In this document: positions 8,878-18,330 of the stretch, piece after piece | Position numbering within the stretch: position 1 is the first letter of the stretch | Layout: each line of letters begins with the position of its first letter | Source of the DNA: Gemmatimonadota bacterium | GTDB lineage: Bacteria > JBHIER01 > G020348925 | Assembly (NCBI GenBank): GCA_020348925.1 | Contig: CP070758.1 | Span: 600,899-646,954 of the forward strand | DNA: 46,056 nt | Reading direction: 5' to 3' | Notes under the pieces: model-generated | Databases searched by the model: none | What the model saw: the letters and a program-made list of their open reading frames with translations, nothing else | What the model was told of the DNA's origin: nothing | Made by a program: the position numbers and the translations under genes

Positions 8878-8933
8878 GACGGTCCATGAATTGCATCCTT
8901 TTCACCCTTCAAAACGATTGCACAGGTGATCCA

Positions 8934-9998
8934 ATGATGAACAGAACCGCTCCTCTTCCCATTTTTGTCCTGATCTGCACTTCTCTTGTTTTCGTCTCAT
9001 GCTGGAAACAGCAGAGTCACGAGTCGCAAGGTCCCGAGTTGCCCAATTATAAGGTCTCCGGACACGTTTTTCACAGCGTTACGAATGAACCCCTGCCAGA
9101 GGCTACCGTCACCATAGACGACCAGGAGTCCCTCACCGACAGCTCCGGCTTCTACTCGATTTCGGATGTTCTCGGTGGCAACGATTATATCATAATCGTC
9201 GCCAAAGATAATTTTGAGACGTACGCCAATCCCTTCCAACTGGGCTACTCCGACCTCGATTTCTTCGATATTGCTCTGGGCAAAATCCTCTATTTCACCG
9301 ATCGCACCCGAGCGCCTTCATATGAGCCGAATTCACTGGTCTGGGCCGGAAATACGCCGTGGTCGTGTGATGGATTGCGAAAGCGAATTTATGCGCTCGA
9401 CGAAACCAACGGACTGTCGTGGATCAAGTATTTCGATTCACCCGGCTCCTTTCCTGACAAAGGTCACTACACGACCCCGTGCGGTTTGACGGCCACCCAA
9501 GAAAACGGAACCGACTATCTCTGGATTTCTGTCGAATACGAAGAGTCGCCCCCGCGTATTTACAAGATGGCCGTCAGGAACGATACCACCCTTTCAACGG
9601 AGGGCTGGTACGATACTCCGGAAAGCGCCCTCTTCCCGGGAGAAAAAGTGCTTCTCGACGATCTCACCTACGACGGGAATTCCATCTGGTCGTGTTCATC
9701 GAGTGAAGGAAAAATTTACAAGCACGGCCCGGATATGTCTGTGGTGGGACAATTTGACTCCCCCGAAGGGGCCCCCTCAGGCATCACCTGGGACGGCCAA
9801 CAGCTGTGGTTGTGTGAAAAAGGATCCAACAGGCTTTCCATGCTCAACGTCGAAACACTCGAGCTGCAAGGATTTTACGTCATTCAGGAAACGCCTGTGA
9901 TGGGAGTGTGTTACAGAAAAGGCTATATCTGGGTGTGCAAGCACGGCACAGAGATAGACGGCCTCCCTTCCTGGTTCTACAAATATCGAGTGAAATAA
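8934..9998 (+). CDS. exported lipoprotein with carboxypeptidase-regulatory-like and propeller domains
   Basis: The ATG at 8934 (or the adjacent one at 8937) gives a lipoprotein signal peptide with cleavage before C23 (FVSC). Residues about 38-110 form a carboxypeptidase-regulatory-like beta domain (VSGHVFHSVTNEPLPEATV, then GFYSI). The remainder has repeated W-D-G-x-x-LW and LDDLTYDGNSIWSC segments like those of glutamine-cyclotransferase or YncE-type propellers. The open frame extends to 8886, but that extension is less signal-like. It ends convergently, 36 nt from the minus-strand B12 operon. Likely periplasmic or outer-membrane located; the ligand is unknown. Confidence 0.8.
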   Translation: MMNRTAPLPIFVLICTSLVFVSCWKQQSHESQGPELPNYKVSGHVFHSVTNEPLPEATVTIDDQESLTDSSGFYSISDVLGGNDYIIIVAKDNFETYANPFQLGYSDLDFFDIALGKILYFTDRTRAPSYEPNSLVWAGNTPWSCDGLRKRIYALDETNGLSWIKYFDSPGSFPDKGHYTTPCGLTATQENGTDYLWISVEYEESPPRIYKMAVRNDTTLSTEGWYDTPESALFPGEKVLLDDLTYDGNSIWSCSSSEGKIYKHGPDMSVVGQFDSPEGAPSGITWDGQQLWLCEKGSNRLSMLNVETLELQGFYVIQETPVMGVCYRKGYIWVCKHGTEIDGLPSWFYKYRVK

Positions 9999-10034: not shown

Positions 10035-11846
10035 TTACGGACAGTCTTCCCTTCCGAGGGAAATGTTCAAAATCTTGATAATATCCAAGACATTGATGTC
10101 ACCATCGCCCTCGCACTCCTGACCGTCGCAATCGGAGCGCAGCAGCTCGACGGCCGTGGGCACACGTTCTCCCAGAACAATCTCGACCAGGTATAACGCA
10201 TCGAGAACATCGATCTGGAGATCGGCGTTAACGTCACATTTGAAGGGGATTTGAGGTGGCTCCTCGAGACCGTGAACCGCCACCACTGCGTCCAGATCGA
10301 AATCACCGTTCGAGGGACCTTCCCCAACAATATCCCCAGCGTCAGTGATTTTTACGAATCGAACGTAGGGAAAACCAACATCGGCGAGATCGAAGGAATC
10401 ACCGCCCGAGACGCTCGGATCGGTGGGATGCTGGTTGTCCTTCGTGGGCGTGACGCCGGCGAATCCTTCAAAGGTGACCGTGTCGTAAGCGAAGGAGACG
10501 AATCGCACACCATCCATGCTCACGGATACGACACCGGCTTCAATGAACGGATCCTCCGTTCCCAAGAGAAAGAACGGATTTTCGAAGACGGTGAAATCAA
10601 CCCCGTCGCCATCGACGATCGCGTTGTCGGAGAACTTCAATACAATCTCTCCGCCGTGTCCCAAGGACAAAATTTCCTGCGGCTTCGCGCTGGAGGAAAA
10701 GACCGTAAGGGTGGGATCCGGATCAGGCGGCCCCAAAACATTCTCCGGGAAAAAATTCTCTCCGAAGCGACTCCAGTCCTCCCCAGGTGCAAAAGACACC
10801 ACCTCGTCGGCCCAGGGATCGGTCTCTAAAATTGGTTCAAGAATGGCCATATCCTGAGCCCCATCACCAAAATTGAACGTCTGCAGCACCGCTCCCCCTC
10901 CAGAGTCGATACGCTGGACAGTGTCATCCGCGAAATTGGAGACGTAGAGATCTCCGCTCCTCGCATCCCACAAAAGCCTCATAGCCCCTTTGCCCACACG
11001 AAGGGGATGCGTAGCATCGTGAAGGATCTCCCCGGTAAATGTATCGTACGAATAGAGAAATCCGTTCCTCTCATCCCCCCAATCAGTCACATACCCGATA
11101 CCCTCGGAAGTGATCGCAATATCCCCAGGGAAGCCGCCGAGAAGAACGCTGTCCACCACCATCGGTGTCCAATCTGCGTCACCGTAAGGATCGATGACGT
11201 ATACTTTCCCACCGTTTCCTCCCCACATTCCGGAACAAAGCACGTGAACCTTTCCATCCGGCGCCACAGCCAGTTCCTGGGGATTCATCGCCACGGCCAG
11301 CGTTTTCGTCACGGTCTTTGAAAGAACATCGATGACACAAACAGTGGCAGGATCGTAATCCGGCCAACCACCCGTGTTGGCCACATAGGCTGTATTGCCC
11401 ACTATCAAAAGACCCTGCGGCCCCTCGCCCACATCGATTTCTCCTGTGACCGTTCCGGTCTCAAGGTCAACGACGGCTATCGTGTTGGCCACATAAAGGC
11501 TCACGTACGCCTGTCCGGCAGCGCTAAAGACGATATCCCATGGATTGCTGCCCTCCGGCAGTGGAATCCTCTTCGCGACCGATTCAGTACGTCCGTCAAT
11601 CACCATCACTTCAGGTGGTATAGAATTGACAACGTATATCTTATCGTTGCGGATCCGAATCCTACTCGGGATATCACCGACGACGAACATGTCATTGACG
11701 ATGTCTCCGCTTTCCACATTCATCTTTGACAGGGTGCGTGCCAGCGCATTCATGACATACATGGTGCGGGGGATATCCTGTCCGCTCGGACTGGATACGG
11801 CACAAAGAAGGCCGACAAGCGCAATAAAAAGTGCGGTCTTTTTCAT
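10035..11846 (-). CDS. secreted YncE-like propeller with dockerin-like tail, candidate B12-binding (BtuG-like) protein
   Basis: The product is 603 residues. A signal peptide (MKKTALFIALVGLL) is followed by a YVTN/YncE-type propeller (residues about 25-340) with units such as MVIDGRTESVAKRI, VVDLETGTVTGEIDVGEG and VCVIDVLSKTVTKTL. A beta-rich domain (about 360-535) has IVLKFSDNAIVDGDGVDFTV and FPYVRFVKITDAGD. The last 65 residues hold two dockerin-type calcium loops (DVNADLQIDVLDA and EGDGDINVLDI). The start at 11846 is chosen because AAAGGAG lies just upstream; the frame extends to 11909. As third gene of a cobalamin-riboswitch operon behind a BtuB-like receptor, it plausibly captures B12 at the surface, as the propeller protein BtuG does in Bacteroides. 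It has no lipobox, unlike BtuG. The B12 role is inference. Confidence 0.8.
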   Translation of the reverse strand: MKKTALFIALVGLLCAVSSPSGQDIPRTMYVMNALARTLSKMNVESGDIVNDMFVVGDIPSRIRIRNDKIYVVNSIPPEVMVIDGRTESVAKRIPLPEGSNPWDIVFSAAGQAYVSLYVANTIAVVDLETGTVTGEIDVGEGPQGLLIVGNTAYVANTGGWPDYDPATVCVIDVLSKTVTKTLAVAMNPQELAVAPDGKVHVLCSGMWGGNGGKVYVIDPYGDADWTPMVVDSVLLGGFPGDIAITSEGIGYVTDWGDERNGFLYSYDTFTGEILHDATHPLRVGKGAMRLLWDARSGDLYVSNFADDTVQRIDSGGGAVLQTFNFGDGAQDMAILEPILETDPWADEVVSFAPGEDWSRFGENFFPENVLGPPDPDPTLTVFSSSAKPQEILSLGHGGEIVLKFSDNAIVDGDGVDFTVFENPFFLLGTEDPFIEAGVVSVSMDGVRFVSFAYDTVTFEGFAGVTPTKDNQHPTDPSVSGGDSFDLADVGFPYVRFVKITDAGDIVGEGPSNGDFDLDAVVAVHGLEEPPQIPFKCDVNADLQIDVLDALYLVEIVLGERVPTAVELLRSDCDGQECEGDGDINVLDIIKILNISLGREDCP

Positions 11847-11992
11847 CAAAAACTCCTTTCGTCTCAAGTCCGAATTCAAGGAGACATGTTTGTTGAAGGT
11901 ACGGCGCATCCTGATTCCCGGTTTCCCGTGGACGACGGACTTGCCAGGATGTTCTCATCTCCCCTCATACGCACAGTGGCGTTCACGCCCTA

Positions 11993-14227
11993 TCAGAAAC
12001 GCGCCTCCATACTCCCCCGCCAATGCCTGCCGGGCAGGGGCGCACGCTCGATCATCTCGTATTCTTCATCCCAGAGATTCAGAACAGAAACCTTGAACCG
12101 TATATCACCTCCCATCACTCCTGTGGAAAACAGCGCACTGATGTCATCCGCAACATACGGCTCCATGCGAACGGTATTGGCTTCCGTCACGAACCGCTCA
12201 CCGATCATTCGCCTTCTATAATCGATTGAAAAGGCCCCGACATCGAGCCCGACGCCAATTTTCGTTGTGCGTTCCGCTTGATAGGGGAGCACCCTGTCGT
12301 GCGTGGTCCGCTCGCCACTCTTGTTGAGCGGTTCAAGAACGACATGACTCAGGGACATGTTCAATCTGTCCTTCCAGGGGTGCCAGTTTCCGCAAAATTC
12401 CCAGCCGGATATGAGGGCATCCGTATTGAATGGCGAAAAAGTGGCGAAGGAGCCCATGCGCCAGACGATGAGATCGTCGATATCGCGGCGAAAGTAGCCG
12501 CCCTCCAACTCAAACCAGCCGTAAACCGGAACACCCAACCGAACACCGACATCAATATTGACGCTGGACTCAGCCTTCACGTCGGGATTCCCCCGAACAC
12601 GGAAATCCTGATAGAAGAGATCGGCCAATGTCGGTGCCCGAAAGGACTGCCCCCAATTGGCTTCGAGAGCCAGGGCATATCCCTGATTTCTGGAGATATG
12701 AAGCCCGAGATGGGGGCTGAATTCCTCCTCCGTGCGCGCTGTCCCTCCGTTCTTGAAATCAATCGCATCATAGCGGAGCGACGACGACAGGCTCCCTCGG
12801 GTCCCGGAGAGAGGCAGCCCGAATCGAGCTTCGGAATGCAGGCCGAAACCTCGGCTGTTATTCAGCGCCCGACCAACACCGCTCGTTCCTGGCCCCAAAA
12901 GATCTCTATCCTCCAGCTCATCACGCCGAAGAGTGGCATTGCATCCGAATTTCAAAACCTTTGATGGATTCCAATCGAACCGAATTCCACCCTGATGAGA
13001 AGTGAGCGCATACAGATTCTGGTACGGCGGTTGGCTTCGATCCTCAAGGGGCGCATCGATCGGTGGAAGATGGCGATATTCCGTATCATTCTCGTGGCGA
13101 GAGAGATGTCCCCTCCAGTGCCACGTGCGCCCTTCGAATCGGTGGTCGAGGATGAAGATCCGCCGATCGGTTTCGGCCCGGGCGTGTGGCGTCAAAGCAA
13201 AGATCAAGCCCGGAAGTCCTCGCTCTGAGTCATACAGGTTCGCTTTGAACGTCACCTCATGTCCGCCCCTCTGGAAGGCGACGGTACCGAACAAATTGTG
13301 GTCGCTGAAATCAGCATTCCGCCTCCTGGTTTGAACGATCTCGCTATCGCCCTTCACGGTTTCGAAGACATACCTTCCCCCGTCCTTCATGTGGTCGTAT
13401 TGCCCGAAAAAGGAGAACTCCTTCCACCTGCCTGAGCAACCGGGATTGATTCCCCAGGCCTGAAAATTCCCGCATGTCAGTTTACAACGTACATCATTTA
13501 GGGAATTGCTCCTCGTCACAATATCGATGACACCACCCAGAGCCCCACTGCCGTAAAGGTGAGAGCCACCGCTCTTCGTAATTCTGACCTCTTTCACCAT
13601 AGACAGGGGTATGAGGGACAGATCGACATCCCCGGTCAGCGGGTCGCTCAAGGAGACACCATCCACGACAACGATCACGTGATTGGAGCGACTGCCTCGA
13701 ATCGAGATGCGTTTTCGGCCCGATCCTCCCCCCTCATCGATGATGTCAACGCCGGATACATGCTCCAGAAGCTCACCCACTGTACGGGCATTGCTCTTCT
13801 CAATCTCTTCGAACGTCAGGCGTTTTACGAAGTTCGAAGTCTCGAGCTGAGATCCAACTCCCTCTGCGACAATCTCATCGACAGGGAGAAAAATCCTGCG
13901 CAGCTCGAAATTGACTGCAGCTATTGTCTCACGACGTACGACGACAGTCTTCGTATGCTGCGTCTCATATCCGACAAACCGTGCCCGCAGGGAGTATTCT
14001 CCGGCAAAAAGATTCTCGATGCTGTAAAATCCCCTCTCATCCGTAAAAGCCCCATAGCCGGTGCCCTCGACGAGGATGGTGGCGCCCACGAGGGGCACTT
14101 TCGTCTCCGCATCAACGACACGGCCAACAATCTTAATTGTTGACTGGGCATCCAGTGTGCTCAGTGTCAGGCACACCAAAGCCACCGACATGAAGAGCTG
14201 GCACAAGATTCCCACCGGTCTCAACAT
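11993..14227 (-). CDS. TonB-dependent receptor, BtuB-like, predicted cobalamin transporter
   Basis: After a signal peptide (MLRPVGILCQLF to LDAQ), residues about 30-110 form a carboxypeptidase-regulatory-like domain (VGRVVDAETKVPLVGATILVEG). A TonB plug follows with ISIRGSRSNHVIVVVDGV and GSGALGGVIDIVTR. A beta-barrel of about 520 residues ends in aromatic Phe (EARF), as outer-membrane barrels do. It is 744 residues from the ATG at 14227. A TTG at 14248 would add seven residues and neither has a strong ribosome binding site. The gene sits between the S component and the propeller gene, all behind a cobalamin riboswitch, so B12 or another corrinoid is the likely cargo. Energy would come from TonB-ExbBD, not encoded here. 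Confidence 0.88.
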   Translation of the reverse strand: MLRPVGILCQLFMSVALVCLTLSTLDAQSTIKIVGRVVDAETKVPLVGATILVEGTGYGAFTDERGFYSIENLFAGEYSLRARFVGYETQHTKTVVVRRETIAAVNFELRRIFLPVDEIVAEGVGSQLETSNFVKRLTFEEIEKSNARTVGELLEHVSGVDIIDEGGGSGRKRISIRGSRSNHVIVVVDGVSLSDPLTGDVDLSLIPLSMVKEVRITKSGGSHLYGSGALGGVIDIVTRSNSLNDVRCKLTCGNFQAWGINPGCSGRWKEFSFFGQYDHMKDGGRYVFETVKGDSEIVQTRRRNADFSDHNLFGTVAFQRGGHEVTFKANLYDSERGLPGLIFALTPHARAETDRRIFILDHRFEGRTWHWRGHLSRHENDTEYRHLPPIDAPLEDRSQPPYQNLYALTSHQGGIRFDWNPSKVLKFGCNATLRRDELEDRDLLGPGTSGVGRALNNSRGFGLHSEARFGLPLSGTRGSLSSSLRYDAIDFKNGGTARTEEEFSPHLGLHISRNQGYALALEANWGQSFRAPTLADLFYQDFRVRGNPDVKAESSVNIDVGVRLGVPVYGWFELEGGYFRRDIDDLIVWRMGSFATFSPFNTDALISGWEFCGNWHPWKDRLNMSLSHVVLEPLNKSGERTTHDRVLPYQAERTTKIGVGLDVGAFSIDYRRRMIGERFVTEANTVRMEPYVADDISALFSTGVMGGDIRFKVSVLNLWDEEYEMIERAPLPGRHWRGSMEARF

Positions 14228-14260
14228 TATGTTATCCGATTTCGTCAATCTCTGAATCGC

Positions 14261-14803
14261 TCAAGATTCTGTCTTTTCCCCTTCGATCTTCATCACTCTC
14301 ACCAAGGCCGGAACGAGTGTCCCAAACAGAGCCGTATTCGTAACCAAATGGATGGACGAAAAGACGACGCCGGCAGCGACGATTTTCAACCATTGAGACA
14401 TGAAACCGGCGCTCAGAGCGAATCCGACATTCGTTCCCACATCATACAGGAGCGTGAGGATCAAGCCCGTCCCCGCAAGGCCCGCTATGTTCAGAGGACA
14501 AAAGGTGCTTTTTCGTACCCATCTTCTCCATATTCCGCCGGCGAAACCTGCCACTCCCATGAAAAGGACCTGCGCCATCAGAACGGGTATGAAGGGAACC
14601 CCCAACGGATTGAAGAACGAAAACAAAAACATGGATACCGCACCGACCAAAGTGCCACGCGCACTCCCGAGGAACAGACCCGACAGAAACGTAAGGGACG
14701 TGATCAACTCAAAATTGGGAACATGAAGGAGTGCGAAACCGGCGGCGACAGTCAGGGCAATGCATATCCCCAAGAGCGTAATATCTTTTGTGGAACATTT
14801 CAT
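14261..14803 (-). CDS. ECF-type transporter S component, predicted for cobalamin
   Basis: This 180-residue protein has about five or six hydrophobic segments and the layout of ECF substrate-binding (S) components: LLGICIALTVAAGFALLHVPNF, FLGSARGTLVGAVSMFLFSFFNPLG, and LVTNTALFGTLVPALVRV at the end. These proteins bind a vitamin in the inner membrane and work with the EcfT-EcfAA' module, not encoded in this window. It is the first gene after a cobalamin riboswitch and is separated by only 33 nt from the BtuB-like receptor, which argues for B12 or a precursor as substrate. It could replace BtuCDF. No strong ribosome binding site is visible (GAAAAAGA precedes the ATG). Confidence 0.82.
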   Translation of the reverse strand: MKCSTKDITLLGICIALTVAAGFALLHVPNFELITSLTFLSGLFLGSARGTLVGAVSMFLFSFFNPLGVPFIPVLMAQVLFMGVAGFAGGIWRRWVRKSTFCPLNIAGLAGTGLILTLLYDVGTNVGFALSAGFMSQWLKIVAAGVVFSSIHLVTNTALFGTLVPALVRVMKIEGEKTES

Positions 14804-14853
14804 TCTTTTTCATATCCGCAGCCGGGCGATTTCTCAGACCTATTTACGGACAT

Positions 14854-15009
14854 TGTCATGCCGACGAGGCCCATTCGACTCGATTTCAAACCTTTGTTTC
14901 ATTCTGAGCGGAGCCCCGAATCACGTCCGGGAGACAGTCCGCGAACGTGAACAATCGCCTCTGCCAGGCTTGAGATTCGACGCCCGGCACACCGGACTCA
15001 GGATGACAT
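14854..15009. repeat. possible small palindromic (REP/MITE-like) element in the B12 leader
   Basis: A 156-nt block is bounded by TGTCAT (14854) and ATGACA (15004) in inverted orientation. It contains TTTCATTCTGAGCGGAGC (from 14895), similar to widespread intergenic palindromes with a TGTCATTCTGAGCG core. It lies between the riboswitch terminator and the ECF start codon. The terminal inverted repeat is short, so support is modest. Confidence 0.35.
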
Positions 15010-15052
15010 ACTGGTCTTTTTTGCCAAGAATTGCCCTGTTCGTGTATATACA

Positions 15053-15081
15053 AAAAAATCCCACCCTCAAGGGATGGGATC
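15053..15081 (-). terminator. intrinsic terminator, likely expression platform of the cobalamin riboswitch
   Basis: On the minus strand, ATCCCATCCC pairs with GGGTGGGAT (one bulged T, loop TTGA), followed directly by seven T residues. It lies about 60 nt downstream of the cobalamin aptamer and 250 nt before the first start codon, the position expected for a B12-induced transcription terminator. Confidence 0.88.
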
Positions 15082-15140
15082 GCATTCCTGTAGATACAAA
15101 AATGTCGTCTAACCTCCCCTCGAAGGCCAACGAGTTAAAC

Positions 15141-15330
15141 GACACAGGCAGGTCTCCTGGCTCACGGTATCACCTTCTCCCGACCTTCCCATCCTGTGAT
15201 TCAGGACAGTGGTCCCACGGAGAAGCGGAGGAGCTGTGCTCCCTCAAACCGATTACAGTGGCGGGGCCGCGACGGAATCTCACCGTCTTCCCTTATTCTC
15301 CCCGAAGTATCGGGGCACCCGCGTCGATTC
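15141..15330 (-). ncRNA. cobalamin riboswitch
   Basis: On the minus strand, the conserved core GCCACTGTAATCGGTTT (complement of 15246-15262) is present, with AAGGGAAGACGGTGAGATTCC upstream in two adjoining parts and the B12 box GAGCCAGGAGACCTGCC (complement of 15148-15164) at the 3' end. Order and spacing match the cobalamin aptamer. It is transcribed toward the ECF S component, the BtuB-like receptor and the propeller gene. An intrinsic terminator follows, so B12 binding is expected to switch the operon off. Confidence 0.96.
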
Positions 15331-15347
15331 TCTTCAATTGTGCGCAC

Positions 15348-15376
15348 AAAATAGAATAATACGACAGTAAAGTCAA
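15348..15376 (-). promoter_or_regulatory. sigma70-type promoter of the B12 operon
   Basis: On the minus strand, TTGACT and TATTTT are separated by exactly 17 nt. The predicted transcription start is near 15341, about 10 nt before the 5' edge of the cobalamin riboswitch. Confidence 0.6.
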
Positions 15377-15615: not shown

Positions 15616-16806
15616 TCAACACCCCTCTCTTTTATACTGCCTTGTGAGTTGATCCTTCTTCTCAATGAACCGAGGCTGCCCGCCAAAATATCTGCTGATC
15701 TTCATTCTCTTTTCCTTCTGGTCCTCATTCATTTCTGCCGAACCGGAAATATCGGGAAAGAGTATCGTTTCCATCCACGCGTTCAATCCACCTTTCAAAC
15801 AATATATTTCTTCCGTACCGATTTCACCCAGAGCCATTAAAGTCTTTCTCGGAACTGTTCCATACTGGGTGTATACGATAATAACCTCCTTGTCGACGAC
15901 GGATCCATCGCGCACGGAACCTTCCGGAGCGTGTTTGGCAAACGGGATATGATACGTTTCAAACTGCATTTTCGAACGCACGTCCAATATATCGAAATCG
16001 TCTTTCTTCTCCATGATCCGATCAGCCAGCTCCTGTACCTCAAGATATCTCAGGGTGACCCCATCAAACCTTTCCTCCAATACTGTGATGCTTGAGCCAC
16101 GATTGTCCTTCGATGGATTTCCGACGACTGCACTGAACAAGGCAAGCACAAGGGCACCGAGGGCAAGCACTCTTTGAAGGCGAAACTTTCCAGGCGAAAT
16201 GCCCATGGCGTGACTGTTCTGTACTCGAAGCTTTCTCCGTTCAATGAGTTCGGCTCCGGCGAACCCTCCCAGCGCCATCATTACAACGCCCAATACGATG
16301 AGCCCTTGAGGAATGTGAAGCAACCGGGGAAATGTGACATGCCCCCATGAGGTGAAATACAAGACATCGTCAAAAAGCGCGAAGAGCTCTCCGAAAGCAA
16401 AAATCCCGAAAAATATCCCCAGCAGGGCAACGAGCCCGTCAATCTTCCCCGTGGCCGAAGCCACCAGGCACGTCCCCGGACAGAGACCCCCTATCACAAA
16501 ACCGACGCCGAAAATCAAACCGGCAATGAGCTGAGGAAAAACATACGTGGGATTGACATACACGAGCGAGTCGTCAACAAGACCCAACCAGGAAAGCCAA
16601 AAAAGACCGAGCATCGCCGTGACAATTGCCGTGAACATAACTTTGAAAAACGCAAGATCGGTAAAGTAGAACTGGGCCGCCATTTTCTTCGCATTCCCCA
16701 GTCCACCTCTTTCCAAGAAAAAGCCGAAGGCAAAGCCAACGGCTAAGGCGACAACCAAACTGGCATCGAAATTGAAAAAACCGAATTTATAGAACGGGGC
16801 TGTCAT
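15616..16806 (-). CDS. YeeE/YedE-family transporter half fused to a cysteine-less rhodanese domain
   Basis: The 396-residue protein begins with a membrane domain of about six helices (residues 15-230) of the YeeE/YedE (TsuA-like thiosulfate uptake) family, with the cysteine motif LCPGTC (C109, C113). Residues about 240-350 form a rhodanese-like domain (ILDVRSKMQFETYHIPFA, LKGGLNAW). Its active loop reads YTQYGTVPR, with Thr at the place of the catalytic Cys (T313). It could bind but not covalently carry sulfur. The start ATG at 16806 has AAGGAGG upstream and overlaps the previous stop by 4 bases (ATGA). Probably pairs with the other half-transporter to import thiosulfate. Confidence 0.85.
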   Translation of the reverse strand: MTAPFYKFGFFNFDASLVVALAVGFAFGFFLERGGLGNAKKMAAQFYFTDLAFFKVMFTAIVTAMLGLFWLSWLGLVDDSLVYVNPTYVFPQLIAGLIFGVGFVIGGLCPGTCLVASATGKIDGLVALLGIFFGIFAFGELFALFDDVLYFTSWGHVTFPRLLHIPQGLIVLGVVMMALGGFAGAELIERRKLRVQNSHAMGISPGKFRLQRVLALGALVLALFSAVVGNPSKDNRGSSITVLEERFDGVTLRYLEVQELADRIMEKKDDFDILDVRSKMQFETYHIPFAKHAPEGSVRDGSVVDKEVIIVYTQYGTVPRKTLMALGEIGTEEIYCLKGGLNAWMETILFPDISGSAEMNEDQKEKRMKISRYFGGQPRFIEKKDQLTRQYKREGC

Positions 16807-17378
16807 GTCCACTGCCTCCTTATAAAATGAGCCGCTGCATAAGCACCTACAAAAACGGAAATCATGAAAATCCAGCTCCCGACGCTCAGGAGCGCACCGC
16901 CGGTCAACGCCTGCCCACTGGTGCACCCGCGGGCCATCTTGGCGGCAAAACCCATCAGTGCACCACCACCGAATGCGAAGAACAACCTGCCGGTCGAAGA
17001 GATCCTCGGTCCTCGGATTATCGACACCCGTAATCTTCCGGCAAGAAGGCCGGAGAGAAATCCACCGACGAGAACACCGAGAATTTCGAAAACGAGCCAA
17101 TCCTTCAGAGGATTTTTGTTTTCGAGATACGTGCTGTACATTCCGTTCGCCTGCGCATGCTCTGGAGCTAACGTGTGAACAGCCGTTGACACGATCGCCG
17201 TGTATCCTCCCGAGGCCCCCAGGCCACGACCCATTATGACAAAAGCGGCCAGCAGCGTAAGCCCCAACCCGATCCCGGCGAGATACGGATTCCAATACCT
17301 CCGAGGTGCTTTCTTCGTTCTTTCTCCTTCCTCCAAATCCGAACCGTACGTCTCGATATCATCACGTTCAGAGTACAT
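16803..17378 (-). CDS. YeeE/YedE-family transporter, N-terminal half
   Basis: This 191-residue membrane protein has a basic cytoplasmic N-terminus and about four or five helices, including the conserved FGGGALMGFAAKMARGCTSG with the transport-associated cysteine. Family members such as TsuA carry both halves in one chain. Here the halves are separate genes with a 4-bp ATGA overlap, which suggests translational coupling and a heteromeric transporter. The start at 17378 has AAGGAGG upstream. It lies 19 nt after the exported sulfurtransferase gene, so all three form one operon. Confidence 0.87.
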   Translation of the reverse strand: MYSERDDIETYGSDLEEGERTKKAPRRYWNPYLAGIGLGLTLLAAFVIMGRGLGASGGYTAIVSTAVHTLAPEHAQANGMYSTYLENKNPLKDWLVFEILGVLVGGFLSGLLAGRLRVSIIRGPRISSTGRLFFAFGGGALMGFAAKMARGCTSGQALTGGALLSVGSWIFMISVFVGAYAAAHFIRRQWT

Positions 17379-17397
17379 ACCCCCTCCTTGGAGTCTG

Positions 17398-18330
17398 TTA
17401 TTGATACGGTCGTATCTTCACAGGCTCTATTACCGGTAAAGTCTTATCACCGGTCCATTCCTGAAATGAGCCGTCGTAAAAGCGAACGTCATACCCGAGA
17501 TACTTGGCCGCAAAGTAAACCGGGCTGGCCCATATTCCCGTACCGCAGTAGATCACTAAAACCGAGCCCGGTTTCGCACCGTTGTCCGAAAATATCTCGG
17601 CCAATTCCGCCGCATCTTTCAATTGAGACGGCGAGTCCTCAGTCATCAACTCAAAGAACGGTATATTGAATGCTCCGGCAATATGTCCGCGTCTCTTAGA
17701 ATGACTATCCCTTTCAATACCGGTGTACACCTCCTCCGGCCTGGCGTCTATGATGACGATATTTGGATTTCTGATATTGTCGTTGATCCATTTTCCATCG
17801 ACAAAAACATCCGCATTCGGTCGAGGAGTATAATTTCCGGTTAATGCTTCCGGTAATTCTGCTGTCAGCTTCCGATTTTCGGCTTTCCATCGAGGAAACC
17901 CACCTTGAAGCATCGACGTACTGTCCCCCAGACCAGCATAATCCAGGGTGAGGAGAAGGCGGGTGGCCAACGAAATTCCTCTTGATTCCGCATAATAGAC
18001 CACAATCCTTGAAGTGTCACTCACCCCTGCTGATTTCAGAACGGAATCGAGTTTTGCGATGGGAGGCCTTTCGTGAAAGAGCCCATTCGGGGAATTCACA
18101 ACAACCTCAAGCAGCGAAAAAATACGCGCACCAGGAATATGCTCCTTGTCATACCCCTCCTTTCTCCCGACATGCAGGAGCAACAGAGAAGGATCGGCCA
18201 AGTGTTCTTCCAACCATTGCGTCGTGACAAACATTGATTCAACCGGACTTTTGCCGGAGACGGTTGATATTGAAATGCATGAAAAGATGAGAATGGCTGC
18301 GATCGTAATCCTAAATCCCGGTTTATTCAT
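17398..18330 (-). CDS. exported two-domain sulfurtransferase (rhodanese / mercaptopyruvate sulfurtransferase type)
   Basis: The 310-residue protein has a signal peptide (MNKPGFRITIAAILIFSC, ending near SGK) and two rhodanese domains. The C-terminal active loop is YCGTGIWAS with the catalytic C262. The N-terminal domain has YYAESRG and lacks Cys, as in classical two-domain enzymes. The enzyme would transfer sulfane sulfur from thiosulfate or mercaptopyruvate to an acceptor in the periplasm. AAGGAG precedes the ATG. It heads an operon with the two YeeE/YedE genes, so thiosulfate handling at the envelope is the likely role. The signal sequence could alternatively act as a membrane anchor. Confidence 0.88.
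   Translation of the reverse strand: MNKPGFRITIAAILIFSCISISTVSGKSPVESMFVTTQWLEEHLADPSLLLLHVGRKEGYDKEHIPGARIFSLLEVVVNSPNGLFHERPPIAKLDSVLKSAGVSDTSRIVVYYAESRGISLATRLLLTLDYAGLGDSTSMLQGGFPRWKAENRKLTAELPEALTGNYTPRPNADVFVDGKWINDNIRNPNIVIIDARPEEVYTGIERDSHSKRRGHIAGAFNIPFFELMTEDSPSQLKDAAELAEIFSDNGAKPGSVLVIYCGTGIWASPVYFAAKYLGYDVRFYDGSFQEWTGDKTLPVIEPVKIRPYQ

Follow-up and report, generated by a model that had tools for sequence, protein, structure and literature searches.

The stretch of DNA considered here, called the window below, spans 46,056 nucleotides of a Gemmatimonadota bacterium (contig CP070758.1; C1:600899-646954 in a genome of one contig and 5.04 Mb). Its minus strand carries, from 15376 to 10035, a cobalamin riboswitch followed in order by an energy-coupling factor (ECF) S component, a TonB-dependent receptor, and, last, a long secreted protein. 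This is the B12 uptake operon that a sequence-only reading of the window had proposed, and its parts are confirmed by RF00174 (114 bits), PF07155, TonB plug and barrel domains, and a propeller in the last gene. The secreted protein joins two domains related to BtuG and BtuH of Bacteroides and ends in a dockerin-like tail. The features of the operon are as follows.

15348-15376, minus strand: sigma-70-like promoter match upstream of the aptamer (9/12 matches)
15130-15337, minus strand: cobalamin riboswitch aptamer (RF00174, E 5.9e-28, full length)
15057-15081, minus strand: terminator-like hairpin with T tail, downstream of the aptamer (10 pairs, 5 of them G-C)
14261-14803, minus strand: ECF S component, CbrT-like, 180 aa (PF07155 at 30.2 bits, cut-off 26.7; profile A8)
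11993-14248, minus strand: BtuB-like TonB-dependent receptor with an N-terminal CarbopepD_reg domain, 751 aa from a TTG start (PF00593, PF07715, PF13715)
10035-11846, minus strand: secreted protein of 603 aa with BtuG-like propeller, BtuH-like domain, and dockerin-like tail (library scans, profiles, models)
10830-11771, minus strand: seven-bladed BtuG-like propeller, residues 26-339 (profile A2 and model)
10242-10829, minus strand: BtuH-type domain, residues 340-535 (model, structural matches to 8blw_B and 7biz_A, profile A9)
10578-10580, minus strand: codon of Asn423, aligned with the B12-contacting Asn399 of BtuH2 (weak hidden Markov model alignment; residue number via one inferred offset)
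10035-10241, minus strand: C-terminal tail with two degenerate dockerin type I-like calcium loops (PF00404, E 3.7e-4)

Apart from this aptamer, the window gave no Rfam match and the genome no cobalamin riboswitch. The hairpin at 15081-15057 is likely the expression platform, a role suggested by position. Promoter-like sites (4 found, 3.9 expected from shuffles) and terminator-like sites (10 against 7.1) occur at close to chance frequency, so that placement alone argues for a transcription-termination switch. The operon is taken to end at 10035 because the downstream neighbor, at 8886-9998, is convergent with it.

A secreted fusion of BtuG and BtuH type

Translation of the secreted protein likely starts at the ATG at 11846, which gives 603 residues and a signal peptide; the listed reading frame begins at 11909. 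The lone cysteine of the signal region is preceded by two leucines (VGLLC) and, judged by eye, forms no canonical lipobox, as the sequence-only reading had observed. The window protein thus does not share the lipobox and lipoprotein export described for BtuG (PMC6143338). Its gene does resemble that of BtuG in position, next to a BtuB-type receptor gene within a cobalamin riboswitch operon. The full-length model finds as its top Foldseek match 8blw_B (E 2.8e-23, 636 columns), the chain of BtuG1 with a fused H-domain; this protein has been renamed BtuGH, and each of its halves binds cobalamin (PMC12751083, PMC10404256). The propeller had previously been singled out as a possible BtuG analogue, and that much stands, since it matches BtuG by profile and model. 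The assignment is corrected here to a fusion of BtuG and BtuH type, residues 340-535 having been overlooked, and such a fusion carries more weight as evidence than would a propeller by itself. The window protein is therefore of BtuGH architecture, with a dockerin-like tail replacing the lipid anchor.

Residues 340-535 make up a separate, highly conserved domain that matches on its own in other genomes and for which a Pfam search returned no family. The domain model, built from an 85-sequence alignment with a mean predicted local distance difference test score (pLDDT) of 94.3, has the fold of the C-terminal globular domain of BtuH. VIA-align gave Z 13.9 both to residues 390-660 of 8blw_B (156 residues, 2.6 Å) and to 7biz_A, which is BtuH2 (153 residues, 2.9 Å), with PAPP-A (Z 10.1) and CBM32-like domains (8.7 or less) as runners-up. 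Foldseek likewise placed 8blw_B first for the domain model (9.2e-6). A CBM32 or discoidin identity was set aside: the fold class is shared (Z up to about 8.7), but the BtuH chains lie well above it. An identity with DUF4465, the BtuJ family, was also dropped, as none of seven members matched Pfam DUF4465 at E up to 1 and the best folds are BtuH chains. BtuJ chains were absent among the 50 matches listed in either structural search, which leaves room for a distant link.

Kinship with BtuH in sequence becomes visible only with deeper profiles. The shallow profile of the second domain, A1, found no PDB match at E up to 10, and its lone Pfam match was a weak one to F5/8 type C (0.033) in one member. 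Profile A6, made up of 85 relatives with L103 excluded as a fragment, found a single PDB match at E up to 10, which was 8blw_B at 0.0025. Profile A9 holds 46 sequences: that of the window, 20 chosen A6 rows, and 27 new rows minus L178 and L164. With this profile only two chains fell below E 1, 8blw_B at 4.2e-5 and 7biz_A at 0.027, and the next stood at 1.3.

The A9 alignment, which is weak for 7biz, lays the motif DFxVFENxF over DFCVQGNAF of BtuH2. Asn399 and Phe401 are B12 contacts of BtuH2 (PMC8941943). If chain positions 299 and 301 of 7biz are taken as Asn399 and Phe401, a single offset that fits both residue types, these two contacts may fall on Asn423 and Phe425 of the window protein. 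The equivalent of Asn399 is Asn in every row of A6 (85/85) and A9 (46/46), and that of Phe401 is Phe in 72/85 and 38/46 rows, respectively.

Relatives of this domain also match NF033170 of NCBIfam, the LIC_13355 lipoprotein family, in 84 of the 85 A6 members (best E 2.7e-13); the window member reaches 31.7 bits against a cut-off of 120. The LIC_13355 proteins, lipoproteins of Leptospira, may also bind B12.

Conservation beside cobalamin riboswitches

The propeller and the second domain are both kept in the cobalamin riboswitch operons of relatives, in keeping with the original proposal. Three overlapping counts bear on this (for example, L043 and G045 share a contig, as do L063 and G007). A first set of 59 genomes is related to the window's organism only at the rank of domain, so its lineage seems to have no close relative among them; of these genomes 11 matched, including the window's own, and each of the 10 others carries a same-strand cobalamin riboswitch upstream. 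In a broader sample the domain is present in 34 of 386 genomes, again including its own, with a riboswitch in 28 of the 33 others (6 from the first set and 22 of 27 new); strand and order in these 33 loci were read by eye. A strict count is 27/33 because the riboswitch of L175 (30.2 bits with R1, a model built from the first-set riboswitches) was not confirmed by Rfam; the weak riboswitches of L166, L172, L173, and L174 were. There are at least 350 relatives, and a scan of named genomes kept the best 80 of 350 confirmed second-domain relatives. Of these loci, 63/80 have a same-strand riboswitch upstream, at a distance within 4 kb in 58 of the 63; the one in L070, which is weak, was confirmed by Rfam. 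Each of four genomes counted has only one or two cobalamin riboswitches, so the association is far beyond chance, with the caveat that Corallococcus-type loci hold three. In five loci of that type (L093, L095, L096, L098, and L109), two BtuH-type genes each stand behind their own cobalamin riboswitch and a TonB receptor stands behind another.

Going by name, 49 of the best 80 come from neither Bacteroidetes nor its sister classes. These are Myxococcus and kin (13), Fermentibacteria and kin (10), KSB1 (7), Planctomycetes with Kuenenia (5), Deltaproteobacteria (4), Sumerlaea (3), Calditrichota with Caldithrix (2), and single representatives of Zixiibacteriota, Electryonea, Binatia, Actinomycetota, and Comamonas; for the final two the label is possibly in error. 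The contig titled Comamonas sp. KCTC 72670 (L067) has the gene and riboswitch layout of the Myxococcus loci, and its label may be wrong. The remaining 31 comprise 13 from Ignavibacteria, Melioribacter, Kapaibacteria, or Chlorobi, which GTDB places within Bacteroidota, 4 Bacteroidetes, and 14 named only as "bacterium". Among the 80 named loci the domain is fused to a propeller in 14, a separate propeller gene is present in 38 others, and a TonB receptor is found in 45. Where they are separate, the propeller and H-domain genes adjoin each other in many loci.

The C-terminal tail and a possible surface attachment

Both dockerin-type calcium loops that the sequence-only reading assigned to the tail are present, but they are degenerate. 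Loop 1 is without the usual Gly, loop 2 has a Cys-containing insertion, and the tail taken alone misses the PF00404 cut-off (21.1 against 22.9 bits), a shortfall that weakens the case for a surface mount of this kind; on the whole protein PF00404 gave no match at E 0.001. The suggestion of a cohesin-like partner led to many cohesin-like domains in the same genome. Of 109 cohesin matches listed, 73 are above the cut-off, which was reached in 1 of 14 control genomes, and a partner family therefore exists in the genome. Dockerin matches number at least 153 (150/525 candidates scored). A genome with a TonB receptor holds cohesins in a number comparable to the largest cellulosome systems, for which 78 cohesins are given (PMC5590126).

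Other homologues end differently. All 14 fused homologues in the named loci bear, at the same place as the dockerin-like tail, a tail like those of FlgD and the type IX secretion system (T9SS) with the motif N[YF]PNPFN (the Pfam scan for it was run on L028 and L029). Several myxobacterial single-domain homologues are lipoprotein-like by eye. Dockerin-like tails below the Pfam cut-off occur in L031 and L117, and a PF00404 search found none in L085.

It is quite possible, if somewhat short of an even chance, that the dockerin-like tail serves secretion or stability and can be exchanged for the FlgD/T9SS-like tails of relatives, and that the protein is released into the medium with no cohesin docking. 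The uniform FlgD/T9SS-type ending of the fused homologues favors this, as do the degeneracy of the loops and the absence of the window tail from the genome dockerin matches listed, while the wealth of cohesins and dockerins in the genome speaks for docking instead.

The propeller and its possible share in binding

Profile A2, made from six propellers of this kind, matched a generic archaeal YVTN propeller first (2e-50) and then BtuG chains at 5e-18 to 7e-12. These begin with 8ptf and 8ptd (both 5e-18) and 8blw_B (8.6e-18) and continue to 7e-12 with 8p97_B, 8okv_B, 8bai_A, 3dsm_A, 8bmy_A, 8bmx_D, and 8bn0_A; the descriptions of the matched chains name BtuG, a B12-bound protein, or a related surface-layer protein. 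The propeller model aligns with BtuG chains at Z 31.5-35.8 and is thus a seven-bladed propeller related to BtuG by both profile and model. Generic propellers reach similar values (Z 37.2 for an archaeal S-layer propeller and 35.0 for 6-phosphogluconolactonase, against 35.8 for 8blw_B), a point that counts against a specific BtuG assignment and makes the YVTN propeller fold alone non-discriminating. The aromatic residues of the BtuG2 B12 pocket were not mappable onto the propeller; conserved aromatic positions are present, and no claim is attached to them.

Alternatively, the operon could be a B12 importer in which only the H-domain binds B12, the propeller serving as a generic YVTN scaffold to space that domain or cap the receptor. 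The high scores of generic propellers would fit such a role, and in 66/80 named loci no propeller is fused to the H-domain. We consider it unlikely, however, given that propeller homologues in L029, L031, L032, and L034 stand beside cobalamin riboswitches with no H-domain detected, and that profile A2 does match BtuG chains.

The receptor and the inner-membrane step

The receptor has the TonB plug and barrel of BtuB, and its best NCBIfam family is TIGR01779, TonB-B12, at 149.2 bits. The S component is related by profile to that of ECF-CbrT: profile A8, of seven S components, matched 6fnp_A, which is ECF-CbrT (PMC5997447), at E 8.4e-10, and the next match was RibU at 0.076. An ECF module adjoining the operon was sought, and EcfT was located elsewhere in the genome (a single copy; PF02361, 156.4 bits). 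A double ECF-type ATPase is encoded in one 581-aa frame as a tandem of TIGR04520-like domains (309.9 and 249.9 bits, both short of the 315 cut-off), the best of 34 ATPase matches. The genome thus has both EcfT and EcfA. A FecCD/BtuC permease (PF01032) was not detected in the genome by a search that was positive in 13 of 14 control genomes; this counts in favor of the ECF route, but with the genome 96.3 percent complete the absence is not proof. Nine matches to the B12-binding domain PF02310 in the genome suggest a cellular use for the vitamin.

The pairing of a TonB receptor with an ECF-type step, which had struck the sequence-only reading as uncommon, is uncommon but not unheard of, since BtuM of Thiobacillus denitrificans is a B12 transporter of the inner membrane that resembles S components and comes from bacteria with BtuB and without BtuCDF (PMC6072759). 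The same S component family also occurs in L029, L042, and L048-L051. A gene of 584-658 aa follows it in L029, L048, L049, L050, and L051; the one in L029 matches the window receptor (E 6e-11), and the beginnings of those in L048-L051, judged by eye, resemble outer-membrane receptors, although the receptor profile did not list these genes. These genes possibly encode an extra outer-membrane component.

That the operon imports another ligand such as heme or flavin, with the riboswitch merely reporting B12 status, is highly improbable: the S component belongs to a Pfam riboflavin group and the receptor also matches heme families (126.5 bits), but the S component profile scores CbrT eight orders of magnitude better than RibU and the H-domain matches B12-binding chains.

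Neighboring genes

The convergent gene at 8886-9998 is lipoprotein-like; it weakly matches a carboxypeptidase-regulatory-like domain (30.7 bits, with the cut-off at 32.3) and shows propeller-like repeats by eye. The strand of the operon also carries, upstream of it at 15616-18330, YeeE/YedE-type sulfur transport genes and rhodanese-domain proteins.

Comparison with known systems

The closest known relative in architecture is BtuGH of Bacteroides thetaiotaomicron (B. theta; 8blw_B), with which the window protein shares the succession of BtuG propeller and BtuH domain within a single chain, a neighboring BtuB-type receptor, and a cobalamin riboswitch operon. The window protein differs in having no lipobox and a dockerin-like tail, and its H-domain is shorter (196 modelled residues, against the chain range 390-660). 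Its lineage appears to lie outside Bacteroidota, and the transport partner is an ECF S component rather than BtuCDF. BtuH2 of B. theta (7biz) shares the H-domain fold and the conserved equivalents of Asn399 and Phe401; unlike the window protein, it is a lipoprotein with Ig-like PKD domains (PMC8941943) and no propeller. With ECF-CbrT of Lactobacillus delbrueckii (6fnp), the S component family is shared by profile and the parts of the ECF module are likewise found, elsewhere in the genome, but the window S component is paired with a TonB receptor in the outer membrane. BtuM functions with no ECF module, whereas the window genome has EcfT and ECF-type ATPases. The BtuJ/DUF4465 jelly rolls are also secreted domains of B12 loci that occur in several phyla and close to propellers and TonB receptors (PMC13398666); the domain described here differs from them in having no DUF4465 match and BtuH chains as its best fold matches.

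BtuG has been reported from Bacteroidetes alone among 313 gut genomes (PMC6143338), lipoprotein-capped receptors have been called seemingly exclusive to Bacteroidetes (PMC10404256), and BtuH domains with propellers were already recorded in gut Bacteroidetes (PMC8941943). DUF4465, another B12-binding domain, occurs in eight clades, and 40 percent of its larger cluster lies near PF16819 propellers (PMC13398666), so that B12-linked propellers beyond Bacteroides are already implicit in that work. No description of BtuH-type domains outside Bacteroidetes was found among the papers listed, and earlier reports are possible.

A model of cobamide salvage

Taken together, the operon is very probably a riboswitch-controlled cobamide salvage system with a dual-site BtuGH-type catcher, a BtuB-like receptor, CbrT-type ECF import, and a dockerin-like surface mount. 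When intracellular B12 is low, the riboswitch would permit transcription. With two sites, as Bacteroides BtuGH has, one in the BtuG-type propeller and the other in the fused BtuH-type domain, the secreted protein would then capture corrinoids outside the cell; it would cap the neighboring BtuB-like receptor and hand its cargo over to it. TonB would drive the corrinoids into the periplasm, and their passage into the cytoplasm would fall to the CbrT-like S component and the ECF module encoded elsewhere, which would replace BtuCDF. The secreted protein, which is not lipidated, would probably be held at the cell surface by its dockerin-like tail, a type widespread in this genome, through one of the many cohesin-bearing proteins.

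Further observations weigh against this model. The Foldseek margin for the second domain is small (muskelin discoidin domain at 4.5e-5), and 7biz is absent among the 50 matches listed. The sequence match to BtuH spans some 70 of 195 positions, with an independent E-value (i-E) of 0.077 for the 7biz stretch by itself, and the BtuH2 contacts Gln333, His476, Tyr510, Trp511, Trp577, and Leu578 lie outside the aligned stretch. The full-length model superposes poorly on 8blw_B (template modelling scores 0.53/0.46 and root-mean-square deviation (rmsd) 12.7 in Foldseek; rmsd 11.5 in a second structural comparison), which indicates that the two domains are arranged differently. The receptor is far under the TIGR01779 equivalog cut-off of 599.7 bits, with a heme family next. 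A riboswitch was not detected in 17/80 named loci; nine of these were rechecked by Rfam and none was found, and the contigs of L039, L044, and L103 begin inside the gene. The same is true of 5/33 loci in the broad sample (L155, L157, L170, L171, and L178), by R1 and by Rfam. Finally, 15/80 named loci have neither propeller nor receptor.

Implications for B12 capture

The H-domain, often with a propeller, stands behind B12 riboswitches in genomes that bear the names KSB1, Calditrichota, Zixiibacteriota, Fermentibacteria, Planctomycetes, Myxococcus, and others, and its C- or N-terminal anchors vary. We tentatively suggest that BtuG and BtuH may belong to a widespread system for B12 capture rather than being inventions of gut Bacteroidetes; such a system would retain its binding domains and swap the anchor between a lipid, a T9SS/FlgD tail, and a dockerin. 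In the organism described here, the catchers might be plugged into a cohesin-bearing, cellulosome-like surface scaffold. An unannotated domain becomes a testable B12 binder, and the mechanism in which a lid closes BtuB becomes testable without lipidation. The operon also offers a case of a TonB system outside combined with a CbrT-type ECF transporter inside.

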